A stretch of 64,000 bases of DNA, from assembly GCA_031284485.1 (NCBI GenBank), contig JAISZT010000057.1, positions 1 through 64,000 on the forward strand, given 5' to 3'. Both the position numbers and the translations under genes were made by a program. Origin of the DNA: Desulfovibrio sp. (lineage in GTDB: Bacteria > Desulfobacterota > Desulfovibrionia > Desulfovibrionales > Desulfovibrionaceae). The notes under the pieces are model-generated. The model was not told where the DNA came from. It did no database searches and saw nothing but the letters and a program-made list of their open reading frames with translations. Below, piece after piece: positions 24,837 through 57,335 of this stretch (position 1 is the stretch's first letter; every line of letters begins with the position of its first letter).

Positions 24837-26525
24837 TCAACGTGCCCCGGCAGAGCCGGGGGATGCATGACTTTGTTGTCCGGACAGAAGAATGGCCAGG
24901 CGGACCATCAGAGAGTAGTCAGGATCCTCCAGGGGTTTTCCCAAAAGATGCTGAATTTTCTCCATACGATAGGTTACGGTGTTGCGGTGTACGTAAATTT
25001 TTTTCGAGGTTCGGGTGATGTCGCCCTGGCAGTTCAGATAGGCCTCCAGGGTTTTACGGAAGTACAGGTTGTGTTCGTTTTCCGGGTAGGCCAGTTCGCC
25101 CAGGATGTGCAGACAGAAATGCCGGATATGCTCCCGGGGGACAAACTGGAACAGTTCTTCGGCTCCTTCGGAATAATAGAAGTGAACGAGCCGTCCGGCT
25201 CCCCGGCCGATCCCGTCACTCAGGGCTTTTTCCAGAGCGCTGACCGCCTCCAGATAAGAATGCTGCAATGACCCCAGGCTGTGGGCCTGGTTGCCCAGGC
25301 CGAAGCGCATATCCAGGGGCACTATTTTCCAGAGGCCCTCGGACAGCGTTTCCAACTGAGGCGGCAGGTTGTCCAGCTTTTCCTTCCACAGCAGCAGGAA
25401 TCGCCCCTGAGAGACTAACGGCAATATCTGGCAATTTTCTCCGATCGGGGAAAGTTTCTTTTTCAGCCAGCGATAGATCAGCTCAAAGTGGTCCCGGCCG
25501 GCCATTTCCCCGGAAAGACCATCGGCATTGAACCCCACGGCCACCACCTGGTAGACGTTGCCGTCCAATGAGGAGAAAAGGGGGGCGGCCTTCATCCAGG
25601 GAGCCATGAGGTGAATGTCCGTCAGGCCCGGCGCGCGGCTGTCCCCTGTCAGACGAAAGAACAACTCTTCCTGGGCCCGCCACTCGTTTTCCCAAAGAAG
25701 CCTCTGATTGTGCGTGGAAAAGGAAAAGACGTTGCCGGCCAGTTCGGTGACCAGAGAGGAAAAGGGTTCCACCATCGGCCCCTCGTGCAGAATGACCAGA
25801 AAAAAAGGGTATTGATTGCCAGCCACAACCGGTGAAACCATGCAGTGTATTTCCCCGAACGATCCTTGCAGCAGAAGTTCCTCGATGCCGGTAAAGGGCT
25901 TCAGCTTGTACGCCTCCAACAGCAAATCGCCTATTTCCAGGGTGCGCTTTTCGCTGAGAATCACTTTATGCCCGTAGGGCGCTGTTCCGAAGGCGGCGAG
26001 GTTGAAGAAATAGTCGTAGTAGAGCACATGCCGGTTCAGAAGCCGGGCGAAGTACCGGAGCAGTTCTTCCAGCGAGGAATTGCGGAACAGAGCTTGGGAG
26101 ATTTTTTTCTGGATGTCGAGGGCGTAGTGAAACTGCTTGGTTTCCAGCCTCATCAGCCTGGACTGGAGCATGTGAGACACGATGCCCAGAGTCGTGTCCA
26201 TGGGAACTCTGAGGATCGGGAAACCAAGTTCGTCCGCCTTTTTCATGACGCCGGGGGAAATATTGGCCACGAAACGGCCCAACTTGACGGCCAGACCGGC
26301 CGCCTTGGCATGGTGCAGCGCCTTGATCAATCCGGCCAGAGCCTTCTGGTCGTCCCGATACAGCATGGCCGTGGTCAGCAACAGGGTGTTTGGTTTGATG
26401 TACTTGGCGATATCCGGCGTTTCCGAGGTGTCCAGCCCGTCCACAGGCCGGTTCAGATCGGCTTTTTGATTCATCACCGTCAATCCGGCTTCCGGAACGG
26501 CCTCCAGCAATTCGCTCAGCTTCAT
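24837..26525 (-). CDS. PucR-family transcriptional regulator of the ureide cluster
   Basis: 562 residues. The N-terminus is a PucR purine-catabolism domain (LLEAVPEAGLTVMNQ, then DISETPDIAKYIKPNTLLLT-like signature around residue 35). The C-terminus is the helix-turn-helix of this family (ITRTSKKIYVHRNTVTYRME near residue 510). It diverges from allC across a 187-base gap, so it is the natural regulator of the allC-arcC operon and perhaps of itself. PucR proteins elsewhere activate purine and allantoin genes in response to a pathway metabolite. The ligand here is not known. Confidence 0.85.
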   Translation of the reverse strand: MKLSELLEAVPEAGLTVMNQKADLNRPVDGLDTSETPDIAKYIKPNTLLLTTAMLYRDDQKALAGLIKALHHAKAAGLAVKLGRFVANISPGVMKKADELGFPILRVPMDTTLGIVSHMLQSRLMRLETKQFHYALDIQKKISQALFRNSSLEELLRYFARLLNRHVLYYDYFFNLAAFGTAPYGHKVILSEKRTLEIGDLLLEAYKLKPFTGIEELLLQGSFGEIHCMVSPVVAGNQYPFFLVILHEGPMVEPFSSLVTELAGNVFSFSTHNQRLLWENEWRAQEELFFRLTGDSRAPGLTDIHLMAPWMKAAPLFSSLDGNVYQVVAVGFNADGLSGEMAGRDHFELIYRWLKKKLSPIGENCQILPLVSQGRFLLLWKEKLDNLPPQLETLSEGLWKIVPLDMRFGLGNQAHSLGSLQHSYLEAVSALEKALSDGIGRGAGRLVHFYYSEGAEELFQFVPREHIRHFCLHILGELAYPENEHNLYFRKTLEAYLNCQGDITRTSKKIYVHRNTVTYRMEKIQHLLGKPLEDPDYSLMVRLAILLSGQQSHASPGSAGAR

Positions 26526-26631: not shown

Positions 26632-26712
26632 GTATCCAAAATAAGGAAAATCAAAGAGTCAGTTTTTTACTTTTATCGAAGTACCGCCCCCGTGGCAACA
26701 AGGAGCAAAGGC

Positions 26713-27939
26713 ATGAATCAGGGAATCAAGGAGATGAGAGATTGTTTGGTTCGGCTCAGCGCCATCGGCGCGACCGAAGGAGGGGGACTGACCCGTCTGT
26801 TGTACTCGCCGTCCTGGCGGGAAGCCCAGGACTGTCTGAGCGCCATGTTTGAGGAAATCGGCCTGGCCGCCAATTTCGACCAGGTCGGCAATCTTTTCGG
26901 CCGGATCGAAGGCCGGGAAAAACCCGAAGAAACCGTCCTGACCGGTTCCCACGTGGATACGGTCAGAAACGGCGGCACTCTCGACGGGCAGTACGGCATC
27001 CTGGCCGGCTGGCTGGCGGTCGGACGTCTCCTTGCGAAACATGGCCGGCCCAAAAGATCAATCGAGGTGGTTTCCTTCGCCGAAGAGGAAGGCAGCCGCT
27101 TCCCCTATGCGTTCTGGGGCAGCAAGAATCTGGTCGGCCTGGCCGACAGGGAGGATCTGCGACAGGCCAAAGATGCCGAAGGCCATTTGTTCTCCGAGGT
27201 CATGGGGCAGGCCGGCTTTGACTTTGAAGCCGTGCGGCCCGCGCCCCGGAAAGACATCAAGGCCTTCGTCGAGGCCCATATCGAACAGGGCGGAGTTCTG
27301 GAAAATCTGAACCGGCAAATCGGCGTGGTGACGGATATTGCCGGACAGAAACGGTATACCGTCACTCTGACGGGTGAAGCCAATCATGCCGGAACCACCC
27401 CCATGTCCATGCGTCATGACGCCATGGAAGGCGCGGCCCGCTGTATGGTCCGCCTTCTGGACGAGGCCGGGAAACAGGGCGATCCCCTGGTGCTGACCTT
27501 CGGCAAGGTGGAAGTTCTGCCCAACATTGCCAATGTTGTCCCGGGGCTTGTTGTTTTCACGGTGGACTGCCGCCACACCGATCAAAAAGCCCTTGACGCT
27601 TTCGCCCGAACCATTGAAAGCGCCATTGGTCAATGCGCGGCCGATCTGGGGCTGACCGCCGAAATCGACTGCTGGATGAATGAGCCGCCCGTCCCCATGA
27701 ACCGTGAACTGATTGAGCGGATCACCCGCGTCTGCCGCGAACGAGGCCTGAAAACCCACGTGATGCACAGCGGCGCGGGACATGACTCCCAAATCCTGGC
27801 ACGGCATTACCCGACGGCCATGTTCTTCGTGCCCAGCATCAAGGGCATCAGCCACAATCCGGCCGAGGAAACCAGAATGGAGGATTTGGTGGCCGGGGTC
27901 GACGCCCTGGAAGCCATTCTCCACGACCTGGCTTATTAA
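26713..27939 (+). CDS. allC: Allantoate amidohydrolase
   Basis: 408 residues, M20/AllC family. It hydrolyses allantoate to ureidoglycine, ammonia and CO2 with two metal ions. Metal-binding motifs are GSHVDTVRNGGTLDGQYG near residue 77, EEEGSRFPYAFWGS, AHIEQGG and HSGAGHDSQ near the C-terminus. The start at 26713 is preceded by AAGGAG and 7 bases; an in-frame ATG 21 bases upstream lacks this. N-carbamoyl amino acid amidohydrolases share the fold, but the neighbours allE and allD make allantoate the likely substrate. Confidence 0.9.
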   Translation: MNQGIKEMRDCLVRLSAIGATEGGGLTRLLYSPSWREAQDCLSAMFEEIGLAANFDQVGNLFGRIEGREKPEETVLTGSHVDTVRNGGTLDGQYGILAGWLAVGRLLAKHGRPKRSIEVVSFAEEEGSRFPYAFWGSKNLVGLADREDLRQAKDAEGHLFSEVMGQAGFDFEAVRPAPRKDIKAFVEAHIEQGGVLENLNRQIGVVTDIAGQKRYTVTLTGEANHAGTTPMSMRHDAMEGAARCMVRLLDEAGKQGDPLVLTFGKVEVLPNIANVVPGLVVFTVDCRHTDQKALDAFARTIESAIGQCAADLGLTAEIDCWMNEPPVPMNRELIERITRVCRERGLKTHVMHSGAGHDSQILARHYPTAMFFVPSIKGISHNPAEETRMEDLVAGVDALEAILHDLAY

Positions 27940-27961: not shown

Positions 27962-29215
27962 ATGATCAATCAAACGCAAACCAATTCTTTCGGGAGCTAC
28001 TGGCACAAAATCGTTGGCCTGCTCTGCTTCGGCTGGGTTTCGATCTGGATTTACCGAACCATCCTGACTCCCATCTATGGAGAAATGCAGGCATCCATAG
28101 GCATCACCAGCGATGCCGGCATGGGGGCTATCGCCAGTATTTATTTCTTCTCCTACACCGGCATGCAGATTCCTTCGGGATTCCTGGTGGACCGCTTCGG
28201 CATCAAGGCCGTTCTGGTACCGGGATTCACGCTTTTCGCCCTGGCGGCGATTCTCATCGGCTCGGCCACCAGTCTGGGCATGATTTATCTCGGGAGTCTC
28301 TGCGCCGGTCTCGGCACAGGCGCCTACTACGGATCGGCCTACTCGCTTTCCGGTCGCACCGTCCCCCAGGAAAAACGGAACTTCTCCAACGCCATCATCA
28401 ACAGCGGATCGGCCGTGGGCATGGCCATAGGCCTCATCGGCTCCAGTTGGCTGGTCAAAAGCCTGGGACTGCCCTGGAACACCATGCTCTACATTATCAG
28501 CGGCATCATTCTGGCAGCCATGATCTGCTTCATCGTGGTCATCAAACCCCAGCAGGACAACAGCAAAGGAAAGGGCGCCCAGGCAAGCGGCGAAGAGCCG
28601 GAAGACCTTTCGACGAAAACCGAACTGTTCTCCCCGCTCTCCATCAGCTACTACCTGCTGTACTTCGCCACCTGCTACGGCTATTACATGCTGGTGACCT
28701 GGCTGCCGAACTTTCTGGAGACAGAACGCGGCTTTACGGGAATGGCCATTGGCATGTCCTCAGCCCTGGTCGCCTTCGCCTCCATTCCCGGCGCCCTGTT
28801 CTTCAGCCGTCTGGCGGACCGTTTTCGCTCCCGTCGCCTGCTCTTCATCGTCTCTCTGGAATTCTGCGCCGCCCTGATGTTACTGCTGGTCGTGTATTCC
28901 CCCTCCTCCGGTTTGCTGCTGCTGGGTCTTCTGTTGTACGGCCTGACCGGCAAGCTGGCTGTGGATCCGATGCTCGTCTCCCTCGTGACTGAAAACTCGC
29001 CCCGCCGCCGCCTGGCCACGCATCTGACCACCTTCAACTTCTGCGGCATGAGCGCTTCGGTGGCCGCGCCTCTGGTGACCGGGCTTATTTCCGACAGTTT
29101 TCATTCCAAAATCGGCGGGTTCTACCTCTCCGTGTTCCTTTTAGTCGTCTGCACGGTTTTCTTTCTCCTTCTCAATCGCCGCCGGGCGGCCGTGCCGGTT
29201 TCCACCCCCGCCTGA
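27962..29215 (+). CDS. MFS transporter, candidate allantoate/ureide importer
   Basis: 417 residues with about 12 membrane segments and a central hydrophilic loop (QQDNSKGKGAQASGEEPEDL). The MFS motif GFLVDRFGIKAVLVPGF is near residue 75. It lies between allC and allE in one operon, so it probably imports the substrate that enters the pathway. The allantoin permease of E. coli (AllP) is of the unrelated NCS1 family, so this would be a non-orthologous replacement. No allantoinase gene is seen, which favours allantoate or another ureide over allantoin. Confidence 0.8.
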   Translation: MINQTQTNSFGSYWHKIVGLLCFGWVSIWIYRTILTPIYGEMQASIGITSDAGMGAIASIYFFSYTGMQIPSGFLVDRFGIKAVLVPGFTLFALAAILIGSATSLGMIYLGSLCAGLGTGAYYGSAYSLSGRTVPQEKRNFSNAIINSGSAVGMAIGLIGSSWLVKSLGLPWNTMLYIISGIILAAMICFIVVIKPQQDNSKGKGAQASGEEPEDLSTKTELFSPLSISYYLLYFATCYGYYMLVTWLPNFLETERGFTGMAIGMSSALVAFASIPGALFFSRLADRFRSRRLLFIVSLEFCAALMLLLVVYSPSSGLLLLGLLLYGLTGKLAVDPMLVSLVTENSPRRRLATHLTTFNFCGMSASVAAPLVTGLISDSFHSKIGGFYLSVFLLVVCTVFFLLLNRRRAAVPVSTPA

Positions 29216-29245: not shown

Positions 29246-30040
29246 ATGGGTTACAAAAATGGACAAACCGGTTATCCCGGTGCGCCTCTGGCCTCGCGGG
29301 CCGTTATCAAAAAAGACAACTATGCACTTATTCCCCCCGCCGGGCTGGTGAAAAACCGCGTGCCCGGCTTCGACAACTGTGAAATGACTATTTTGGCCAG
29401 CCGCAAACTGGGGGCCAGTTTCGTGGACTATGTGGTCACCATGCTGCCGGAAGGCAAAAACGCTCTCGGTTTCGGCGGCGACGGGGTGGAAACCTTCGTC
29501 TACGTCCTGGACGGCCGGATTCGCGCGGGTGACGGCAGCCGGGACTATGCTCTGGAGCGGGACGGCTATCTCTATCTGCCGCCGGACAAAAAACTGTATC
29601 TGGAAAACCGGGCCGGCGGAAACAGTGAGCTTTTTCTGTACAAGCGGCTCTATCAGCCCCTGGTCGGCCATCAGCCCCGCGCCTTCGCCGGAAACGCCGG
29701 AGAAATCAAGTCCTATGACTATGAAGGTATGAAGGACGTCCGGATATGGGATCTTCTCCCCACCGACGATCTGGGCTTTGACATGAATTTCCACATTCTG
29801 AGCTTCGAACGGGGCGCCTCCCACGGCTACATCGAAACGCATGTGCAGGAACATGGAGCCCTTATTCTTGAAGGTGAAGGACTCTACAATCTCGACAACG
29901 AGTGGCTGACCGTCGGGAAAGGCGACTATATCTTCATGGCCGCCTATACTCTCCAGGCCGCCTACGGCATCGGCCGAAACGAATGCTTCCGGTACCTGTA
30001 CTCCAAAGACTGCAACCGCGACGAAAGCCTCAAGGAGTAA
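29246..30040 (+). CDS. allE: (S)-ureidoglycine aminohydrolase
   Basis: 264 residues, bicupin fold (YlbA/AllE). It hydrolyses (S)-ureidoglycine to (S)-ureidoglycolate and ammonia and holds a manganese ion. Both cupin halves are visible; the metal-binding motif lies in the second, in HGYIETHVQEHGALILEGEG near residue 192. ACAAGGAGTACATC lies before the ATG. The middle step between AllC and AllD, which flank it apart from the transporter. Length as expected. Confidence 0.92.
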   Translation: MGYKNGQTGYPGAPLASRAVIKKDNYALIPPAGLVKNRVPGFDNCEMTILASRKLGASFVDYVVTMLPEGKNALGFGGDGVETFVYVLDGRIRAGDGSRDYALERDGYLYLPPDKKLYLENRAGGNSELFLYKRLYQPLVGHQPRAFAGNAGEIKSYDYEGMKDVRIWDLLPTDDLGFDMNFHILSFERGASHGYIETHVQEHGALILEGEGLYNLDNEWLTVGKGDYIFMAAYTLQAAYGIGRNECFRYLYSKDCNRDESLKE

Positions 30041-30045
30041 GAAAC

Positions 30046-31155
30046 ATGAACGCCACTGCCAACACCCTGTCTCAGGAAAAACAATCGGATCAGGAAATTA
30101 TACTGCTGACAAAAGATCAGATCGTCGATCTCATCCGGAAAAAGCTTGAACAGGCCGGGCTCCCTCGGGAGCAGGCTCTGCAAGTCGCCGATCACCTGGC
30201 CTACGCCGATTCTCTGGGAGTGCACTCCCACGGCAGCGTCAGGGTGGAATACTACGCCGAACGCATCTACAAGGGGGGCAGCAATACCCATCCGGACTTC
30301 AAAATTGAGGAAACCGGCCCCTGTTCGGCCGTGGTGGACGGCGACAACGCCGTGGGCTTTGTGGTGGCCAACCTCGGCATGCGTCAGGCCATTGAAATGG
30401 CCCGGGAAAAAGGTCTGGCTATGGTCGGCATGAAGCGCATGGGCCATTGCGGCACCTTGAGCTATTACCTGCGTCAGGCGGCCGCCGAGGGGCTGATTGG
30501 CCTGTCGATGTGCCAGAGCGACCCAATGGTGGTGCCGTATGGCGGGGCGCAACCGTTTTTCGGCACCAACCCCATCGGATTCGCCTGCCCGGTGGATGGC
30601 GGATCGCCCATTGTTTTCGACATGGCCACCACAGTTCAGGCCTGGGGCAAGGTTCTGGACGCCAGAGCCCGCAAAAAGAAAATACCCGACGACTGGGCCG
30701 TGGATAAAGACGGCCGCCCCACCACCGACCCGTTCGCCCTGAGCGGCCTGTGCGCCGTGGCCGGGGCCAAGGGCTACGGCCTGATGATGATGGTGGACAT
30801 CCTCTCCGGAACGCTTGTGGGCCAGCCCTTCGGGCCGCACGTCACTTCCATGTACGCTCATCTCGATCAGGGCCGGGAACTGGGGCAGTTGCACATAGTC
30901 ATCAACCCCGCTTCTTTCGGCGACCCCAAGGTTTTCACCCGCAATATCAGCCAGATGGTCCAGGAACTGCACGCATGCAGACCGGCCGTCGGCCATACCC
31001 GGGTTCTCTATCCCGGCGAGCGTTCAGCGCAGGTGGAAAAGAAATACCGCGAAAGCGGCATTCCCATCGTCCGGGAGATTTACGACTATCTTGTCAGTGA
31101 CGACATTTTTCAAAACACATACGAACTCGGCGATCCTTTTGCCGTTCGCCGCTAG
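30046..31155 (+). CDS. allD: Ureidoglycolate dehydrogenase
   Basis: 369 residues, malate/L-lactate dehydrogenase type II family. It oxidises (S)-ureidoglycolate to oxalurate with NAD. YADSLGVHSHGSVRVEYY near residue 50 carries the conserved SxGxxSHG pattern, GHCGTLSYYLRQAA and PFFGTNPIGFACP bind cofactor, and FDMATTVQAWGK follows. AAGGAGTAAGAAAC precedes the ATG at 30046, 5 bases past the allE stop. Other LDH2 dehydrogenases act on lactate, malate or sulfolactate; the context decides here. Confidence 0.9.
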   Translation: MNATANTLSQEKQSDQEIILLTKDQIVDLIRKKLEQAGLPREQALQVADHLAYADSLGVHSHGSVRVEYYAERIYKGGSNTHPDFKIEETGPCSAVVDGDNAVGFVVANLGMRQAIEMAREKGLAMVGMKRMGHCGTLSYYLRQAAAEGLIGLSMCQSDPMVVPYGGAQPFFGTNPIGFACPVDGGSPIVFDMATTVQAWGKVLDARARKKKIPDDWAVDKDGRPTTDPFALSGLCAVAGAKGYGLMMMVDILSGTLVGQPFGPHVTSMYAHLDQGRELGQLHIVINPASFGDPKVFTRNISQMVQELHACRPAVGHTRVLYPGERSAQVEKKYRESGIPIVREIYDYLVSDDIFQNTYELGDPFAVRR

Positions 31156-31167
31156 GGGGAGGTTCCC

Positions 31168-34100
31168 ATGCTGCATACAATCATTCGGAAAAACAGCTAT
31201 CAGGATTCCATCACCCTGATGCTTCTGACCAATATGATCGCCACCATGGACGGCGTGGCCAAGGTATCCATCATGATGGGTACCCCGGCCAATAAAGACA
31301 TTCTGGCGGCCGGCGGGCTGGGTACGCCGGAACTGGCCGGAGCCGGAGCCAACGACATTGCCATGGTCATGGATATCGACAGCGAAAACCGCGTTGAAGG
31401 CCTCCTGGCGGCAGTTGACGAATTTCTGCGGCGACAGGGCGAAGGCAATGGACAGTACCGGGGGGGCGACAAACCTGTCCGGGACTGGGCACAGGCATGG
31501 TCCGCGCGACCCGACAGCAACATCGTGCTGTTGTCCATTCCCGGCGCCTATGTGGAAAGCGAGGCCGACCGGATACTGGAAGAGGGGCGGCATGTCTTCA
31601 TCTTCAGCGACAACGTCCCTCTGGAGGTTGAAAATCGTCTGAAGAAGAAAGCCGCCGACAAGGGTCTTCTGGTTATGGGGCCGGATTGCGGCACCGCGCT
31701 CATCCGGGGTGTGCCTTTTGCCTTTACCAATGTCATCCCCCGAGGCCGGATCGGTCTTGTGGGCGCGTCCGGCACGGGCATTCAGGAAATTTCGACCCAG
31801 ATCGCCCGCCGGGGCGCGGGCGTCTCCCAGGCCATCGGCACCGGCGGCCGCGACATAAACGGCGAGATCAACGCCTCGACCATGAAGACCGCCCTGGCCG
31901 TCCTGGCCGACGATCCCGACACGGATTGTCTGGTGGTGGTGGCCAAACCACCGGCTTCTTTGGTGCGGGAAGAAATCATGAGCCTCTTGCGGGCTATTGA
32001 AAAGCCCTGCGTGGCCGTCTTCATCGGCGAGCGCCCGGCCGCTCACGAAGAGGGGCTGTTCCTGGCCGACACGCTGGAAGAGGCCGCTGAACTGGCCGTG
32101 GCCCTGGCAACCGGCGAAGATCCCTCTGGCCGCGCCTATCGGCCGGAGTTGCCCCCAAGCCCGCCGGACGTGGCCGGCCGAACCATTCGCGGCCTGTATG
32201 CCGGAGGGACTCTGGCAGGTGAGGCCGCCGCTCTGCTGACCCGCGCCCTGGGTCTGACCGACAACGGGGCGGGCCATCATGAAGAGGGCTTCATGTTCCG
32301 CCACGGCGGTCATGAGATCATCGACCTGGGCGATGACGCCTATACCCGGGGCAAGCCTCACCCGATGATCGATCCGCAGACCCGCACCCAGCACATCCTC
32401 AACGCGGCCGGGGACGCGCGGACGGGTCTGATCCTTCTGGATTTTGTGGAGGGCTACGGCGCGCACACCGATATGGCCGGGGCGCTGGTTCCGGCCATCC
32501 GCGAGGCGGGACAGATTGCCGGGCGGGACGGGAGGTCGTTACTCTTCATGGCTTGCGTCTGCGGCACGGAAAACGATCCGCAGCCGCGTTCGGAGCAGGT
32601 CCGCATTCTGGAAGAGGCCGGGGTTTATGTGGCCCCCAGCAACGCCGCCATGGTCGCCGCCGCCCTCGGGGCACTTGGCCTGGATCTCGCGTTCCCGGCC
32701 AAGGAAATCGGCGCTCCCGGCGGCCCCAAAGCCTCAGCGCTCCCCCCTGTGCCCGAATCCGTCCGGCGGCTGTTCGCCGACGGTCCGGTGGTGGTCAACG
32801 CCGGGGTGCGCGGCTTCACCAGGCCCTTTGAGGACCTGGGCATCCCGTATGTCCAACTGGATTGGCGGCCCGTAGCCGGCGGTGATGTCGAACTGCAAGG
32901 CATGCTCAACTTTTTGAACCGCCATGACAATGGTTCCATTGATCTGGCCAATCAGGAGGTCATCGACAAAATTCTGACATCCTCGCCCTTTCTGCTGGAC
33001 GTCAGGCCCGCCCGCGAACTGATTCCCGCCCTGGCTGAAAAAAAGGTACTGCTCCACGCCGGGCCGCCCATTTGCTGGAAGAACATGACCCGTCCGATGC
33101 GGGGTTCCTGCGTGGGAGCCGCGCTGTTTGAAGGCTGGGCAGGCGACGAGGACGAGGCCCGGAATCTTCTGGAAACCGGCGGCGTCGAGTTCCTTCCCTG
33201 CCACAGCGTGAATGCGGTCGGCCCCATGGGGGGCATCACTTCGGCCAATATGCCGCTTCTGGTTGTTCTCAACAAAACCGACGGCAACTTCGCCTACTGC
33301 ACCATGAACGAGGGCATCGGAGCGGTGCTGCGCTTCGGGGCTTACAATGAGGCCGTCATCGAACGTCTGCGCTGGATGCGCGACGTACTCGGGCCGACCT
33401 TGTCAAAAGTGCTCGGCGGTATTGAAGGCGGCTTGAATATCAATGTCCTGGCCACCAAGGCCATTGCCATGGGCGATGAGTTCCATCAACGCAACATCGC
33501 CGGTTCTCTGAATTTCCTCAAGGAGATAGCCCCGCTGCTGGTGGCGGCTGACGTTCCGGAGGAGCATCGCCGCCAGGTCATGCGCTTTCTGGCCGACACC
33601 GATCAGTTCTTTCTCAACATCATGATGGCCGCCGCCAAAAGCGTCATGGACGCCGCCCGCACCCTCACGCAAGGCAGCGTGGTCACGGCCATGACCCGCA
33701 ACGGCGAGAACTTCGGCATCCGCATCTCGGGCATGGGGGACGAGTGGTTCACCGCTCCGGTCAACACGCCGGACGGGCTCTATTTCACCGGCTATTCCAG
33801 CGCCGACGCCAACCCGGACATGGGCGACAGCGCCATCACCGAAACCTTCGGCGTCGGCGGCATGGCCATGATCGCCGCCCCGGCCGTGACCCGTTTCGTC
33901 GGCAGCGGCGGCTTTGACGACGCCCTGGCAACCAGCAACGAAATGATGGAAATCTGCCTCGGCCGCAACCCCAATTTCCCGGTACCCACCTGGAATTTCC
34001 AGGGGATATGCCTGGGCATCGATGCCCGCCGGGTGGTGGCTACGGGCATCACGCCGGTCATCAATACCGGCATCGCCCACAAGCAGGCCGGTATAGGCCA

Positions 34101-34191
34101 GATCGGCGCGGGCACGGTACATCCGCCGCTGGCCTGTTTTGAAAAGGCCGTCCGCGCCTATGCCCGCAAGCTGGGATATGGTCGGGCGTAA
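31168..34191 (+). CDS. fdrA: FdrA-YlbE fusion protein (oxamate carbamoyltransferase component)
   Basis: 1007 residues, equal to FdrA plus YlbE of E. coli (about 555 and 419). Residues 1 to about 589 are FdrA-like, with CoA-binding/ligase folds: VMGPDCGTALI, GRIGLVGASGTGIQEIST and DFVEGYGAHTD. Residues from about 590 are YlbE/DUF1116: VLLHAGPPICWKN, CVGAALFEGWA and CHSVNAVGPMGGITSANM. The E. coli genes fdrA, ylbE and ylbF (renamed allF, allG, allH) are reported to encode oxamate carbamoyltransferase, which converts oxalurate and phosphate to oxamate and carbamoyl phosphate. The two parts run in frame with no stop or internal ribosome binding site at the junction, so this is a true fusion. Confidence 0.88.
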   Translation: MLHTIIRKNSYQDSITLMLLTNMIATMDGVAKVSIMMGTPANKDILAAGGLGTPELAGAGANDIAMVMDIDSENRVEGLLAAVDEFLRRQGEGNGQYRGGDKPVRDWAQAWSARPDSNIVLLSIPGAYVESEADRILEEGRHVFIFSDNVPLEVENRLKKKAADKGLLVMGPDCGTALIRGVPFAFTNVIPRGRIGLVGASGTGIQEISTQIARRGAGVSQAIGTGGRDINGEINASTMKTALAVLADDPDTDCLVVVAKPPASLVREEIMSLLRAIEKPCVAVFIGERPAAHEEGLFLADTLEEAAELAVALATGEDPSGRAYRPELPPSPPDVAGRTIRGLYAGGTLAGEAAALLTRALGLTDNGAGHHEEGFMFRHGGHEIIDLGDDAYTRGKPHPMIDPQTRTQHILNAAGDARTGLILLDFVEGYGAHTDMAGALVPAIREAGQIAGRDGRSLLFMACVCGTENDPQPRSEQVRILEEAGVYVAPSNAAMVAAALGALGLDLAFPAKEIGAPGGPKASALPPVPESVRRLFADGPVVVNAGVRGFTRPFEDLGIPYVQLDWRPVAGGDVELQGMLNFLNRHDNGSIDLANQEVIDKILTSSPFLLDVRPARELIPALAEKKVLLHAGPPICWKNMTRPMRGSCVGAALFEGWAGDEDEARNLLETGGVEFLPCHSVNAVGPMGGITSANMPLLVVLNKTDGNFAYCTMNEGIGAVLRFGAYNEAVIERLRWMRDVLGPTLSKVLGGIEGGLNINVLATKAIAMGDEFHQRNIAGSLNFLKEIAPLLVAADVPEEHRRQVMRFLADTDQFFLNIMMAAAKSVMDAARTLTQGSVVTAMTRNGENFGIRISGMGDEWFTAPVNTPDGLYFTGYSSADANPDMGDSAITETFGVGGMAMIAAPAVTRFVGSGGFDDALATSNEMMEICLGRNPNFPVPTWNFQGICLGIDARRVVATGITPVINTGIAHKQAGIGQIGAGTVHPPLACFEKAVRAYARKLGYGRA

Positions 34192-34209
34192 ACCTCGCAG
34201 GCGGAGGGA

Positions 34210-35088
34210 ATGAACATGCCCGGAGTAACGGCAACCGGGGGCGGCAGGTCTGCCGCAGCGGCCCCTGTGCTTCTGAAGCCGGTGCTGACCTCGGATACGG
34301 CGTCCCCGTTGTTGTCCCTGCCCCGTCCCTGGAAAGTACGGCTGCGTTTCCGCAAGGGGTTCCTGGCGCAAAGCTGTGACGACGCCCTTTTCATCGGCAC
34401 TGACGAGGCCAGCCCCGGTCCGTACCATCTTCTGCTGTCCAAACCGGACTTCAGCCAACTGGCCGATTGGGACGTAGGGAGCATCGTCACCTCCCACAAA
34501 GGGCGTCTCGGCCGGGGCCGCCTGTTTATCGACATTTCAGCCGCGGTTGAATACGGCACCTCGGCCGCTTTCCTTGATTGCGCGGCTTCGGCCTGGGCGG
34601 AAAAGCGCCTGGGGGATTTTCTGCGGGAGGAGAACCCGGAAACCGGCTTTGGCTGCCGCGCGCGCATGGCGTGCAGTGAAGACGGTCCCGTCCCGTTTTC
34701 GCCGATGGATATAATTGGTGCCCGAAGCCGGCTGGAACTGCTGAAATGGATGATCGGACGGGGGCCGGGCCTGACTCCCAGCGGTGACGATTTTATCATC
34801 GGTTTACTGGTCGTGTTGCCGCAATGCGGCGAACTGCATGAACAGGTCGCCGCATTGATCAGCCGTCCCGGCCTGACCGGTGTGGTCAGCCTCGCCTACC
34901 ATCGGGCCGCTCTGGCCCGCCGCTTCGACCGTACCCTTTGCCTGATGACCGAAGCGGCGGTCCAGAGAAATGAAAATTTGTTCATGAAGGCGCTCACCCA
35001 AATATTGGGTCACGGGCACAGTTCCGGGGCCGATCTGCTCTGCGGGATACTCTTCGCCCTGAGTAGCCGTGGAAAAAAAGGATGGTGA
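34210..35088 (+). CDS. allH: YlbF/DUF2877 protein, oxamate carbamoyltransferase third component
   Basis: 292 residues. The DUF2877 signature GRGPGLTPSGDDFIIGLLV is near residue 180, and GHGHSSGADLLCGI closes the protein. E. coli YlbF (AllH) is needed with FdrA and YlbE for oxamate carbamoyltransferase activity. Here it follows the fusion gene by 18 bases and abuts carbamate kinase by 1 base, so all parts are in one operon. The N-terminal 25 residues are low in complexity; a start at the second Met (34216) is possible. Confidence 0.82.
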   Translation: MNMPGVTATGGGRSAAAAPVLLKPVLTSDTASPLLSLPRPWKVRLRFRKGFLAQSCDDALFIGTDEASPGPYHLLLSKPDFSQLADWDVGSIVTSHKGRLGRGRLFIDISAAVEYGTSAAFLDCAASAWAEKRLGDFLREENPETGFGCRARMACSEDGPVPFSPMDIIGARSRLELLKWMIGRGPGLTPSGDDFIIGLLVVLPQCGELHEQVAALISRPGLTGVVSLAYHRAALARRFDRTLCLMTEAAVQRNENLFMKALTQILGHGHSSGADLLCGILFALSSRGKKGW

Positions 35089-35089
35089 A

Positions 35090-36046
35090 ATGAGTAAGAT
35101 AGTGAAAGAAAAATTGGCGGTAATCGCCGTCGGCGGCAACGCCCTGACCACGGATCAGGACCACCTGAGCCTCGCCAATCAGTATGAAAAAGCCGTGGAA
35201 GCGGCCGAACACATCGCCGACCTGATGCTGGACGGATGGAACGTGGTGGTTTCCCATGGCAACGGCCCCCAGATCGGATTGATGCTGCGCCGATCCGAAC
35301 TGGCCAGTACCGAGGTTCCGCAGATGCCCATGGACTACGCGGGAGCGACGACTCAGGGCGTGGTGGGCTACATGTTCTGCAAGTCTCTGCGTAACGCCTT
35401 CGCCCGGAGAGGTCTGAAGCGGGAGCCGGTAGCCGTGGTCACCCAGACCCTTGTCGACGGACGGGATCCGGCCTTCGCCGCCCCTGTCAAACCCATTGGC
35501 GGTTGGTTCACCGAAGAGCGGGCCCGCATTCTGGAGCGGGAACAAGGTTGGCGGGTGATTGAAGACTCCGGTCGGGGCTGGCGGCGGGTGGTGGCTTCCC
35601 CCGCTCCTATAAAAATAGTCGAACTGGAACCGATTTCCCGGATGATCAAGGCGGGCCTGACGGTTATCGCCGTTGGCGGAGGAGGTATTCCTGTGGTTCA
35701 GGGGCCTTCGGGCGAACTGATCGGGGTTGACGCGGTGGTGGACAAGGATAGGTCCGCCGCGCTTCTGGCCGGCGCGCTGCAAGCCGATATGCTGATACTG
35801 CCGACGGCGGTGGAAAAGGTGGCCGTGCGCTTCGGACAGCCGAACCAGAAGTGGCTCGACCACCTGAGCGTGGCCGAGGCCGAGGAGTATCTGGCCGGCG
35901 GCGAATTCCCGGCGGGTAGCATGGGACCGAAAATAGACGCCCTGCTGCGTTTCGTCAAAGCCACCGGCGGTTGCGGCCTCATCACCTCCCCTGACAAGTT
36001 GCGGGAGGCAGTCAAGGGCGACACCGGCACCCGCATTTCAGGGTAG
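35090..36046 (+). CDS. arcC: Carbamate kinase
   Basis: 318 residues, amino-acid-kinase fold. It transfers the phosphate of carbamoyl phosphate to ADP. AVGGNALTT near residue 12, VVSHGNGPQIGLMLRRSE near residue 50, VVTQTLVDGRDPAF and AVGGGGIPV are diagnostic. It ends the ureide operon and gives the ATP yield of allantoate fermentation, as AllK does in E. coli. The start at 35090 sits 1 base past the ylbF stop; an upstream in-frame ATG would overlap ylbF. Confidence 0.94.
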   Translation: MSKIVKEKLAVIAVGGNALTTDQDHLSLANQYEKAVEAAEHIADLMLDGWNVVVSHGNGPQIGLMLRRSELASTEVPQMPMDYAGATTQGVVGYMFCKSLRNAFARRGLKREPVAVVTQTLVDGRDPAFAAPVKPIGGWFTEERARILEREQGWRVIEDSGRGWRRVVASPAPIKIVELEPISRMIKAGLTVIAVGGGGIPVVQGPSGELIGVDAVVDKDRSAALLAGALQADMLILPTAVEKVAVRFGQPNQKWLDHLSVAEAEEYLAGGEFPAGSMGPKIDALLRFVKATGGCGLITSPDKLREAVKGDTGTRISG

Positions 36047-37787: not shown

Positions 37788-37987
37788 GAAATCCTCCTTA
37801 CAAATGCAATTTATCGTGTTCGGCGGAAAACATCAATATGGCCGCCTGGACCGGCTGTTCGCGGGAACGGCCGGCTTGACCCGCGATGGAAAGTCTGGCA
37901 ACAGGGATTGTCGAAATTATACGAGGTTGGACGCTCATTTCGCTGTCCTTCATGCTTTGAGGTGTGTTTGCCCGGAAAGGATGCTCT

Positions 37988-39568
37988 ATGAATACACGAA
38001 AAATATCCAGACCGATCATATTTTCCCAGGCCGGAATGGTCGTAAGCGGTCATCACCGGGCGTCGGAGGCGGGCGCGTCAATATTGCGCGCCGGCGGAAA
38101 CGCCCTTGACGCCGCCATAGCCGCTTCAGCCGCATTGTGCGTTGCCGTGCCGAATATGAACGGGCTTGGGGGAGATTGTTTCGCACTTTTCTATGACGCA
38201 AAGCGCAATAAAGTGACATGCATTAACGGCAGCGGCGCTGCCCCCGCCGCAGCTCTGCCTCAGGCCTATGTTGACAGAAATTGTCAGTCCATGCCCAAAA
38301 GGGGGCCTCTGCCCATTTCGGTGTGCGGGCTTGTCCATGCCTGGCAGTCCGGTCTCGCGGCCTTTGGTTCCGGCAGATACTCCCTGGCGCAACTGATCGA
38401 AAACGCCGCCTGTCTGGCCGAACAGGGAAGCGAAGTTGATGTGTGCCTGCAGGAATATTTCGCTTCCGACGCCTATCATGAGCTTGTCCTGAACGCTCCG
38501 GGTCTGAAGGATATTTTCGGGCCGCGCGCAAAGCGTTCCCTGGGTGAACGCATACCACAAAAAACATTGTCCGCGTCTTTGCGCCGGATCGCTGAAGAAG
38601 GCGTTGAAACCATGTACGGCGGCGCTCTGGGCCGTGATTTGATTGATGATCTGTCCCGCCAGGGCAGTTTGCTCACTCTGGATGATATGCGCAAGCATAC
38701 TACGCGACTTGTGGACGCGCTTTCCGTCAGCTTTTACGGTCGGCGGCTTTTTTTTGCTCCGCCGAATTCACAAGGCATCGCCCTGGGGCTTCTGGCCGGG
38801 TTGTGGAAGGCGTTGCGCGAGGGAAAGGCCGCCCCCGACCTCACTCCGGAAACGTACATGCGTCTCAAAAATATCGCTTTTGACCTGCGCGATCGCTATG
38901 CCGTTGATCCGGCGCGGGGCGTGCGCCTGCCGCCGGAACTGCTGGAGGAGAAAACACTCCATTCCCTTCTTGAAAAAAATCCGCCGCCCCCGCGTGACGG
39001 TGTCTGCTCCGGCGGCGACACCAGTGCGCTTGTGGTTATTGACCGCTGGGGCAATGCCGTAAGCTGGGTGCAGAGCTTGTTTGACGATTTCGGAAGCGGC
39101 GTTGTTTCGCCGTCCACAGGGATTGTCATGCACAACCGCCTTCGCCTGGAAGTTCTTGCCGAGAATTCTCCGCGCTGCGTGCAGCCCGGCATGCGGCCTT
39201 TCCATACCTTGTGCCCAGCGCTGCTTGTTGGCGACAGGCGCTGTGAAATCGCCATAGCCACTCCGGGGGATCATGGTCAGCCGCAGTCGCTTTTTCAGGT
39301 GCTGGTCAACATTTTTGCAAAGGACATGAACATACAGGCGGCGATTGAAGCGCCGCGCATGCGCCACGACAGCGGGACCGATCTTATGCTTGAGGGCGCT
39401 TTGTACGAATTGTACGCCCGTGAGGCGGAACCCCTGGGCATGCGCCCTGTGGATGTTGGAGAGTGGCCTCGTCTTATGGGTGGGGTCAACGCCATTCAAT
39501 GCGTGCCGGAAGGCGCATTGCTGTCCGGCGCGGATCCGCGACGTTCAAGCTACGCCGTGTCTGCCTGA
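37988..39568 (+). CDS. Gamma-glutamyltransferase-family hydrolase, cytoplasmic form
   Basis: 526 residues. N-terminal half shows GHHRASEAGASILRAGGNAL and PNMNGLGGDCF; the autoprocessing site SGGDTSALVVID places the catalytic Thr near residue 350, so the protein should split into a large and small subunit. Downstream FDDFGSGVVSPSTGIVMHNR and TPGDHGQPQ fit the family. There is no signal peptide, unlike E. coli Ggt, so it acts in the cytoplasm; substrate may be a gamma-glutamyl compound or a cephalosporin-acylase-like amide. AAAGGATGCTCT precedes the ATG at 37988. Confidence 0.82.
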   Translation: MNTRKISRPIIFSQAGMVVSGHHRASEAGASILRAGGNALDAAIAASAALCVAVPNMNGLGGDCFALFYDAKRNKVTCINGSGAAPAAALPQAYVDRNCQSMPKRGPLPISVCGLVHAWQSGLAAFGSGRYSLAQLIENAACLAEQGSEVDVCLQEYFASDAYHELVLNAPGLKDIFGPRAKRSLGERIPQKTLSASLRRIAEEGVETMYGGALGRDLIDDLSRQGSLLTLDDMRKHTTRLVDALSVSFYGRRLFFAPPNSQGIALGLLAGLWKALREGKAAPDLTPETYMRLKNIAFDLRDRYAVDPARGVRLPPELLEEKTLHSLLEKNPPPPRDGVCSGGDTSALVVIDRWGNAVSWVQSLFDDFGSGVVSPSTGIVMHNRLRLEVLAENSPRCVQPGMRPFHTLCPALLVGDRRCEIAIATPGDHGQPQSLFQVLVNIFAKDMNIQAAIEAPRMRHDSGTDLMLEGALYELYAREAEPLGMRPVDVGEWPRLMGGVNAIQCVPEGALLSGADPRRSSYAVSA

Positions 39569-56204: not shown

Positions 56205-57335
56205 TCAGGCGACAATGTCCAACAATGCGTCAAAGGCCATTATGGCAGGGCTACGCCCGCTGGCGGGCCTCAGCAAGTTTAACGTGCCCGCCTCGGCAAG
56301 GCGCTGCGCAATACGCGTAGCCGTCGGCCTCGGAATGTTTGCGCCCGGAATAAAGGCGCTCATGCTGAAAATAGGGTTTTCAAATATCCAGTCCAGGGTA
56401 TGAATCGCATATTTTGATCCCGTCGCTTCGACAAGGTGCGACTTCATTGCATTATAAAGATCTAAAATTTTTGTGGCTTTGTTAAGATTTTCTTCTGATT
56501 GAACTTGTACGGCCTCCAGAAAAAAACGACACCATCCCGTCCAGTCCTTGTCTCGTGAAACAGCGAGCAGCTTTTCATAATAAACATCGCGGTGGGCCTC
56601 AAGATATGCGCTTATATAAAAGGCCGGACGTCGCAGTATGCGAGCCTGATACAGAAAAAGAGGAATGATCATGCGCCCAAGTCGTCCATTGCCATCCAAA
56701 AACGGATGTAAAGCTTCAAATTCAGCATGAACAACAGCAAGTTGCACAAGCGAATCACGTTCTTCCGCATGGATATATTTTTCCCATGTGGATATGGAAT
56801 CAGGCAGGGTATTCGCATCAGGAGGAACATAACGCGCATTATCAATGGTACAGCCGGGTGGCCCAACCCAGTTAGGTATCTTACGGTATTCTCCAACCGC
56901 TTTGTTTTGCCCTCTCACCCCTGAAAGCAAAATGGCATGCGCTTCTTTGATGATTCTTTGGGATAAGGGCAGTTCTTCCAGTTTTTGCTCCGCAAAACGC
57001 ATGGCCCGACGATAGTTGGAAATTTCTTGCATATCTGCGTCTTTAGGCGACTGTGGAGTCAATTTATCTTTTTCTTGCGCTTCATAGGTAAGCACTTCAT
57101 TGAGCGTTGCCTGCGTTCCTTCTATACGCGAAGAAAGCACAGCTTCATTGGTCATAAGAGGACTCAGCAATACTCCAGGATTGGGTATGGCCTGAAGCAG
57201 ACCGTCATATCTGGCAACAGCGCCATTGGCTTTACCGATAAGCGGCACCAGTTCCGACCAGTCAATATTTGTTGGGGGAAAGCCTCCTTTGTGATAGCGC
57301 ACCACGCCGGCAGTTCCCTTGCGCTGTCCTCTCAT
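56205..57335 (-). CDS. Fic-family protein (class II, self-inhibited)
   Basis: 376 residues. The Fic active site HPFLDGNGRLGR is at residues 210-221 and is complete. The inhibitory motif SSRIEG (pattern S/TxxxEG/N) is at residues 68-73, upstream of the Fic core, as in class II Fic proteins that block their own AMP transfer. An N-terminal Fic_N-like part and a C-terminal winged-helix (RPTATRIAQRLAEAGTLNLL) complete it. It would AMPylate an unknown protein. The gene sits between a 17-bp direct repeat, splitting the LeuC operon region from its transporter neighbour. Confidence 0.88.
   Translation of the reverse strand: MRGQRKGTAGVVRYHKGGFPPTNIDWSELVPLIGKANGAVARYDGLLQAIPNPGVLLSPLMTNEAVLSSRIEGTQATLNEVLTYEAQEKDKLTPQSPKDADMQEISNYRRAMRFAEQKLEELPLSQRIIKEAHAILLSGVRGQNKAVGEYRKIPNWVGPPGCTIDNARYVPPDANTLPDSISTWEKYIHAEERDSLVQLAVVHAEFEALHPFLDGNGRLGRMIIPLFLYQARILRRPAFYISAYLEAHRDVYYEKLLAVSRDKDWTGWCRFFLEAVQVQSEENLNKATKILDLYNAMKSHLVEATGSKYAIHTLDWIFENPIFSMSAFIPGANIPRPTATRIAQRLAEAGTLNLLRPASGRSPAIMAFDALLDIVA

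Follow-up and report, generated by a model that had tools for sequence, protein, structure and literature searches.

To determine what is encoded by a long FdrA–YlbE-like frame in a Desulfovibrio sp. contig, we analysed a 64,000-nucleotide stretch of DNA (the window) and asked whether the frame is a genuine fusion of two oxamic transcarbamylase (OXTCase) subunits, which pathway it serves and what its junction says about the enzyme. Up to 2024, OXTCase counted as an orphan enzyme. Candidate genes were proposed in 2012 by CanOE (PMC3364942), and Kim & Kim (2024) purified AllF–AllG–AllH of E. coli and demonstrated OXTCase activity, making E. coli the only organism for which the genes are identified and the activity shown (PMC11326118). 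An earlier note on this DNA had cited E. coli FdrA, YlbE and YlbF as an oxamate carbamoyltransferase, which agrees with that purification. The locus encodes a known enzyme of a known pathway in the form of a common fusion, and the functional reading of the earlier note is sound. The features are as follows.

24837..26525, − strand: PucR-family regulator, divergent from the operon
26692..27939, + strand: allC, allantoate deiminase (600 bits against a cut-off of 532; alternative ATG at 26713)
27962..29215, + strand: MFS transporter, likely for ureide uptake, its substrate judged from context
29246..30040, + strand: allE, (S)-ureidoglycine aminohydrolase (312 bits against a cut-off of 200)
30046..31155, + strand: allD, ureidoglycolate dehydrogenase (528 bits against a cut-off of 496)
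31168..34191, + strand: allFG, fused AllF (FdrA) and AllG (YlbE), 1007 aa, OXTCase subunits 1 and 2
31168..32754, + strand: AllF core, residues 1 to ~529, succinyl-CoA synthetase (SCS) alpha / NDP-forming acyl-CoA synthetase fold without the phospho-histidine motif
32755..32931, + strand: junction module d, residues ~530–588, VNAGVRGF...LDWRPVAGG
32932..34191, + strand: AllG part, residues ~589–1007, PF06545
34210..35088, + strand: allH (DUF2877/PF11392), third OXTCase subunit (79 bits against a cut-off of 25, model positions 1–109/109)
about 35090..36046, + strand: allK, catabolic carbamate kinase, passing its family cut-off (GTG at 35069 as alternative start)

Positions 31168–34191 (+) form a single open frame of 1007 codons with an ATG start. 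GGGGGAGG stands upstream of this start, and purine-rich sequence precedes most gene starts in the operon. Within allFG a full AllF (residues 1–587) is joined to a full AllG (588–1007): the NCBIfam FdrA model NF004760 matches residues 1–584 over its whole length (1–555/555, 629 bits; cut-off 433 bits), and the Pfam AllG model PF06545 matches residues 673–888 (1–215/215, 313 bits). By sequence match, residues 83–587 correspond to E. coli FdrA (3dmy) and residues 591–999 to the E. faecalis DUF1116 protein (3clq) in the PDB, and these ranges together with the family-model matches place the F/G boundary at residue ~587–590. The modelled AllG fold also matches 3clq (TM 0.94 by target). The earlier note had described one uninterrupted 1007-codon FdrA–YlbE frame with a junction near residue 589; the frame is borne out, with both parts full length by family models, and the junction position is correct. 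The OTCace Pfam domains, used as a test for ATCase/OTCase-type transcarbamylases, gave no match in AllFG or AllH.

Many relatives are split by just one in-frame stop at the junction, for example in Listeria (L037) and E. coli (L161), and the long frame might therefore come from a split allF/allG pair whose stop codon was lost or is hidden by a sequencing error. This explanation is disfavoured, to the point of being negligible, by two loci from separate assemblies, L033 (96% DNA identity) and L034 (92%), which are 90–95% identical, differ in 4–8% of bases and are both open across the F/G junction. Both align with the window free of indels between residues 93 and 883, the sole gap outside the contig end falling at residue 92, and synonymous codon changes outnumber amino-acid changes (54:44 and 105:86, respectively); both contigs terminate inside allFG. 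A third locus, L035, is likewise fused at 66% DNA identity. Because the separate L033 and L034 assemblies are open at the same junction, allFG is no frameshift artefact, and the stop or frameshift named in the earlier note as fatal to its reading was looked for in these two loci and not found. A further copy, L032, which is 81% identical and comes from the same MAG as L033, has a TAG at L032:2086–2088 that breaks AllF near residue 361; this copy may be a decaying pseudogene or an assembly error.

The genuine fusion lies in the gene order allC, MFS, allE, allD, allFG, allH, allK, all on the + strand, with the PucR regulator divergent. Every pathway enzyme from allantoate to ATP passes its family cut-off within this one cluster, confirming the proposed complete allantoate-to-ATP gene set and, after the fusion, YlbF (DUF2877; here AllH, PF11392) and carbamate kinase (AllK). 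The claim that allC, allE and allD lie upstream holds for all three genes, each over its cut-off; the MFS gene between allC and allE, the divergent PucR regulator and the allantoinase encoded elsewhere in the genome were not mentioned in the earlier note. It is very likely that the cluster is a catabolic allantoin-branch operon, probably horizontally acquired, in a dsrA-bearing host, with AllFG and AllH phosphorolysing oxalurate. In this route the MFS protein would probably import the ureide, AllC would form ureidoglycine, AllE would form ureidoglycolate and AllD would oxidise ureidoglycolate to oxalurate; the AllF–AllG fusion with AllH would then phosphorolyse oxalurate to oxamate and carbamoyl phosphate, from which AllK, with ADP, would yield ATP, NH3 and CO2. 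We infer OXTCase activity and this direction for the present bacterium; the reaction could run towards oxalurate instead, and the 2024 kinetics are given with carbamoyl phosphate and oxamate as substrates (PMC11326118).

Relatives of these genes also occur beside genes for other ureides. Nitrifier allFGHK adjoins biuret genes (PMC12625717), and a related pair on a Klebsiella plasmid adjoins genes for a ring-opening amidohydrolase and a carbamate kinase, and atzF, which would fit a fused protein acting as a carbamoyltransferase on another ureido substrate. We regard this as unlikely, since AllFG of the window falls with the E. coli type in a 66-row clade with support 100, apart from the type that its own family carries, and since allFG directly follows allC, allE and allD. 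The middle module of the window copy also sits on the F side, as in the E. coli type. The Klebsiella plasmid is conjugative and carries its FdrA and DUF1116 genes with these neighbours at L164:5983–11075, with IS3 transposases nearby; the cluster is likely a transcarbamylase cluster for another ureide, and numerous plasmids of Citrobacter and Enterobacter give similar matches.

A possible chemistry for oxalurate phosphorolysis by AllFG and AllH is suggested by the fold of AllF, whose model resembles both SCS alpha and the ADP-forming acyl-CoA synthetases. In SCS, an acyl donor and Pi give an acyl phosphate, whose phosphate then passes via a histidine to an NDP. At the GHAGA phospho-histidine loop of SCS, AllF of the window reads FLADT in an alignment of remote homologues, and histidine occupies the phospho-histidine column in just 30 of 92 aligned AllF rows, so that the column is not conserved. 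As AllF lacks this loop, it would keep the acyl-phosphate half-reaction alone (N-carbamoyl and Pi to carbamoyl phosphate), with the ureido carbonyl serving as acyl donor for AllFGH and phosphate transfer to ADP left to AllK. The PF00549 and PF02629 matches and the SCS-like fold of AllF would also suit a CoA-dependent enzyme of the SCS or acyl-CoA ligase type, a reading suggested in PMC3364942; it is very improbable, given that the phospho-histidine loop is not kept and that E. coli AllFGH has transcarbamylase activity (PMC11326118). Neither a structure of the assembled OXTCase complex nor an assigned catalytic subunit was found in the literature. For the transcarbamylase, AllH contributes an invariant GxGxGLTPSGDD and a conserved GHSSGxD, motifs that look catalytic or phosphate-binding, in a divergent protein with 18–28% identity to most relatives, a divergence that counts against the OXTCase reading. 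In its model (pLDDT 92), a small barrel forms the N-terminal part, and the C-terminal half, where the invariant residues lie, is helical. Foldseek against the PDB returned no match to this model at E <= 0.001, and VIA-align 2 gave middling Z only, 5.3 at most, in matches that covered the N-terminal barrel; a new fold is not implied.

The host genome carries dsrA (641 bits; cut-off 393), so the description of the genome as sulfate-reducer-like stands, and the ATP-yielding allantoate route is placed in a dsrA-bearing bacterium. An allantoinase encoded elsewhere in the genome is barely over its cut-off (365 against 358), and allantoin itself may therefore be used. The 1007-aa AllFG type was found in no other of 288 family genomes, and 19 other family genomes hold more distant matches only, in most of which F and G are split and AllG carries the module. 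Because genus and family relatives are without this AllFG type, the operon was probably acquired horizontally in this lineage. A chimeric or mis-binned contig was considered and is unlikely, as ThiC, encoded 4.8 kb downstream, is present in 71 of 79 genus genomes at 65–82% identity. The closest AllFG sequences belong to MAGs that carry the labels Candidatus Adiutrix, Accumulibacter and Coriobacteriia and whose isolate codes look to us like those of termite-gut sets; some of these MAGs may be mis-binned.

In E. coli, allFGHK adjoins allECD (PMC11326118), and the window shares with that system all subunits, the carbamate kinase, the three preceding enzymes, the F–G–H–K order and the F/G boundary, E. 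coli AllF ending with the d module. By contrast, F and G are fused in the window and separate in E. coli, allC–allE–allD lies upstream on the same strand where the E. coli counterparts are divergent, and MFS and PucR genes belong to the cluster, unlike in E. coli; identity to the E. coli proteins is ~43% for AllF and ~63% for AllG. The PucR–allC–MFS–allE–allD–allFG order of the window recurs in MAGs labelled as other lineages, namely L033 (Ca. Adiutrix bin) and L034 (Accumulibacter bin), at 90–95% identity, and L035 (Coriobacteriia), at 64–66%. In Paenibacillus L041, the genes from allC to allK follow the window order and PucR lies on the opposite strand.

Both fused and split forms, for which the earlier note had proposed a search, are present in related genomes, and one open F–G frame occurs in 62 of the 80 best related public-genome loci, a count that includes the window itself (L001) and L032, interrupted inside AllF. 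Fused loci come mainly from Lachnospiraceae, Clostridium and some Bacilli, and also from Butyricicoccus, Pasteurellaceae and a Leptotrichiaceae bin; in the order of Listeria booriae, 36 of 295 genomes have an uninterrupted match (hand count). The fused proteins of Lachnospiraceae, Clostridium, E. faecalis and Paenibacillus radicibacter share the junction, measure ~1000–1040 codons and are about 50–58% identical to the window copy, in separate fused lineages on the tree; carbamate kinase is usually nearby and allC/E/D often. At 35 fused loci, allC, allE, allD and allK each have a homologue no more than about 8 kb away, some of the allC matches being only about 35% identical and possibly paralogues. 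The fusion is therefore not unique, nor is the operon in its fused form, and so common a fusion alters no known pathway. The earlier note had presented the route as undescribed; this novelty was overstated, since OXTCase has been known as AllFGH since 2024, the operon follows the E. coli logic and many public genomes carry the fusion. Our search within open-licence full text found no mention of an AllF–AllG fusion, and the literature matches listed include no description of the pathway in a sulfate reducer, a weak negative. The E. faecalis fusion (WP_002355249.1) is annotated merely 'fdrA', and the database label 'acyl-CoA synthetase FdrA' for fusions masks the AllG half.

On F+G trees built without the junction columns (92 rows, quick; 38 rows, mixture model), the best estimate is four changes between fused and split states, at least three being forced by well-supported branches, and always at one point. 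The 38-row mixture-model tree gave four changes over the 5–95% bootstrap range, with one-change trees at 0%. The fused lineages are the window with L034 and L035; Lachnospiraceae and relatives; Enterococcus/Clostridium/Bacilli; and Paenibacillus radicibacter. With split enterics as outgroup, repeated fusion is the simpler reading, and some of the changes may instead be losses. In split relatives of the E. coli type, F and G usually share a frame, often with one stop codon between them, which makes fusion easy. Apparent giant fusions in some genomes (G634, G673 and G587), with open frames of 700–1757 aa around F or G, were rejected as ordinary split F-d and G genes in DNA whose stop-free frames are long.

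The point of joining coincides with a ~55-residue module, d, with the pattern NxGL...WxPxAGG, which is carried by AllF, by AllG, by F-d-G fusions or by a free ~56-codon ORF. In E. coli-type pairs AllF extends 53–85 residues beyond residue 510 and AllG begins near 585, and in the other AllFG-like type, that of the window's family relatives, AllF stops at ~510 and AllG starts at ~533. The free ORF lies between allF- and allG-like genes (L119:3055–3246, L127:1487–1683 and L129) and encodes peptides of the pattern INIGLxxFAxxLxxQGVxxVHVDWRPPAGG; two of them align with the final 50 positions of the FdrA model (E = 2.5e-12 and 1.1e-14), and against Pfam none of the three was over cut-off. In the AlphaFold model, residues 530–588 form helix-strand-helix-strand-helix with pLDDT of about 82–94. 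Four encodings of one conserved segment suggest that d is a discrete, separable piece of OXTCase-type enzymes and not a linker; the repeated one-point fusions would then mean that d bridges the dimers of F and G, and perhaps does so at the active site, in a carbamoyltransferase on an SCS-like fold that lost the phospho-histidine. As a whole, we hold this reading tentatively, at somewhat less than even odds. Fusion would link adjacent genes that already share a frame, at the point where AllF ends anyway, and would fix a 1:1 stoichiometry around d. The earlier note took the fusion as independent support for an F–G complex; it does add support, to a complex that joint purification had already suggested. 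The movable module, which might be the sole part a specialist would not expect, is a specific candidate for the F/G interface, and the natural F-d-G fusion would allow structural and kinetic work on a construct of fixed 1:1 stoichiometry.

Two further loci of the window lie outside the operon. A gene at 37964–39568, 1.9 kb past allK and a separate unit, encodes a protein of the gamma-glutamyltranspeptidase (GGT) family, which includes the oxamate amidohydrolase HpxW. In the PDB, this protein is closest to 2nlz (193 bits), and 5hft, which we take to be HpxW, scores lower at 121 bits; the protein might consume oxamate as HpxW would, the similarity being unspecific. At 56205–57335, a Fic-domain protein (Fic_N and Fic) adjoins an aconitase-family gene and the lactate racemase LarA.
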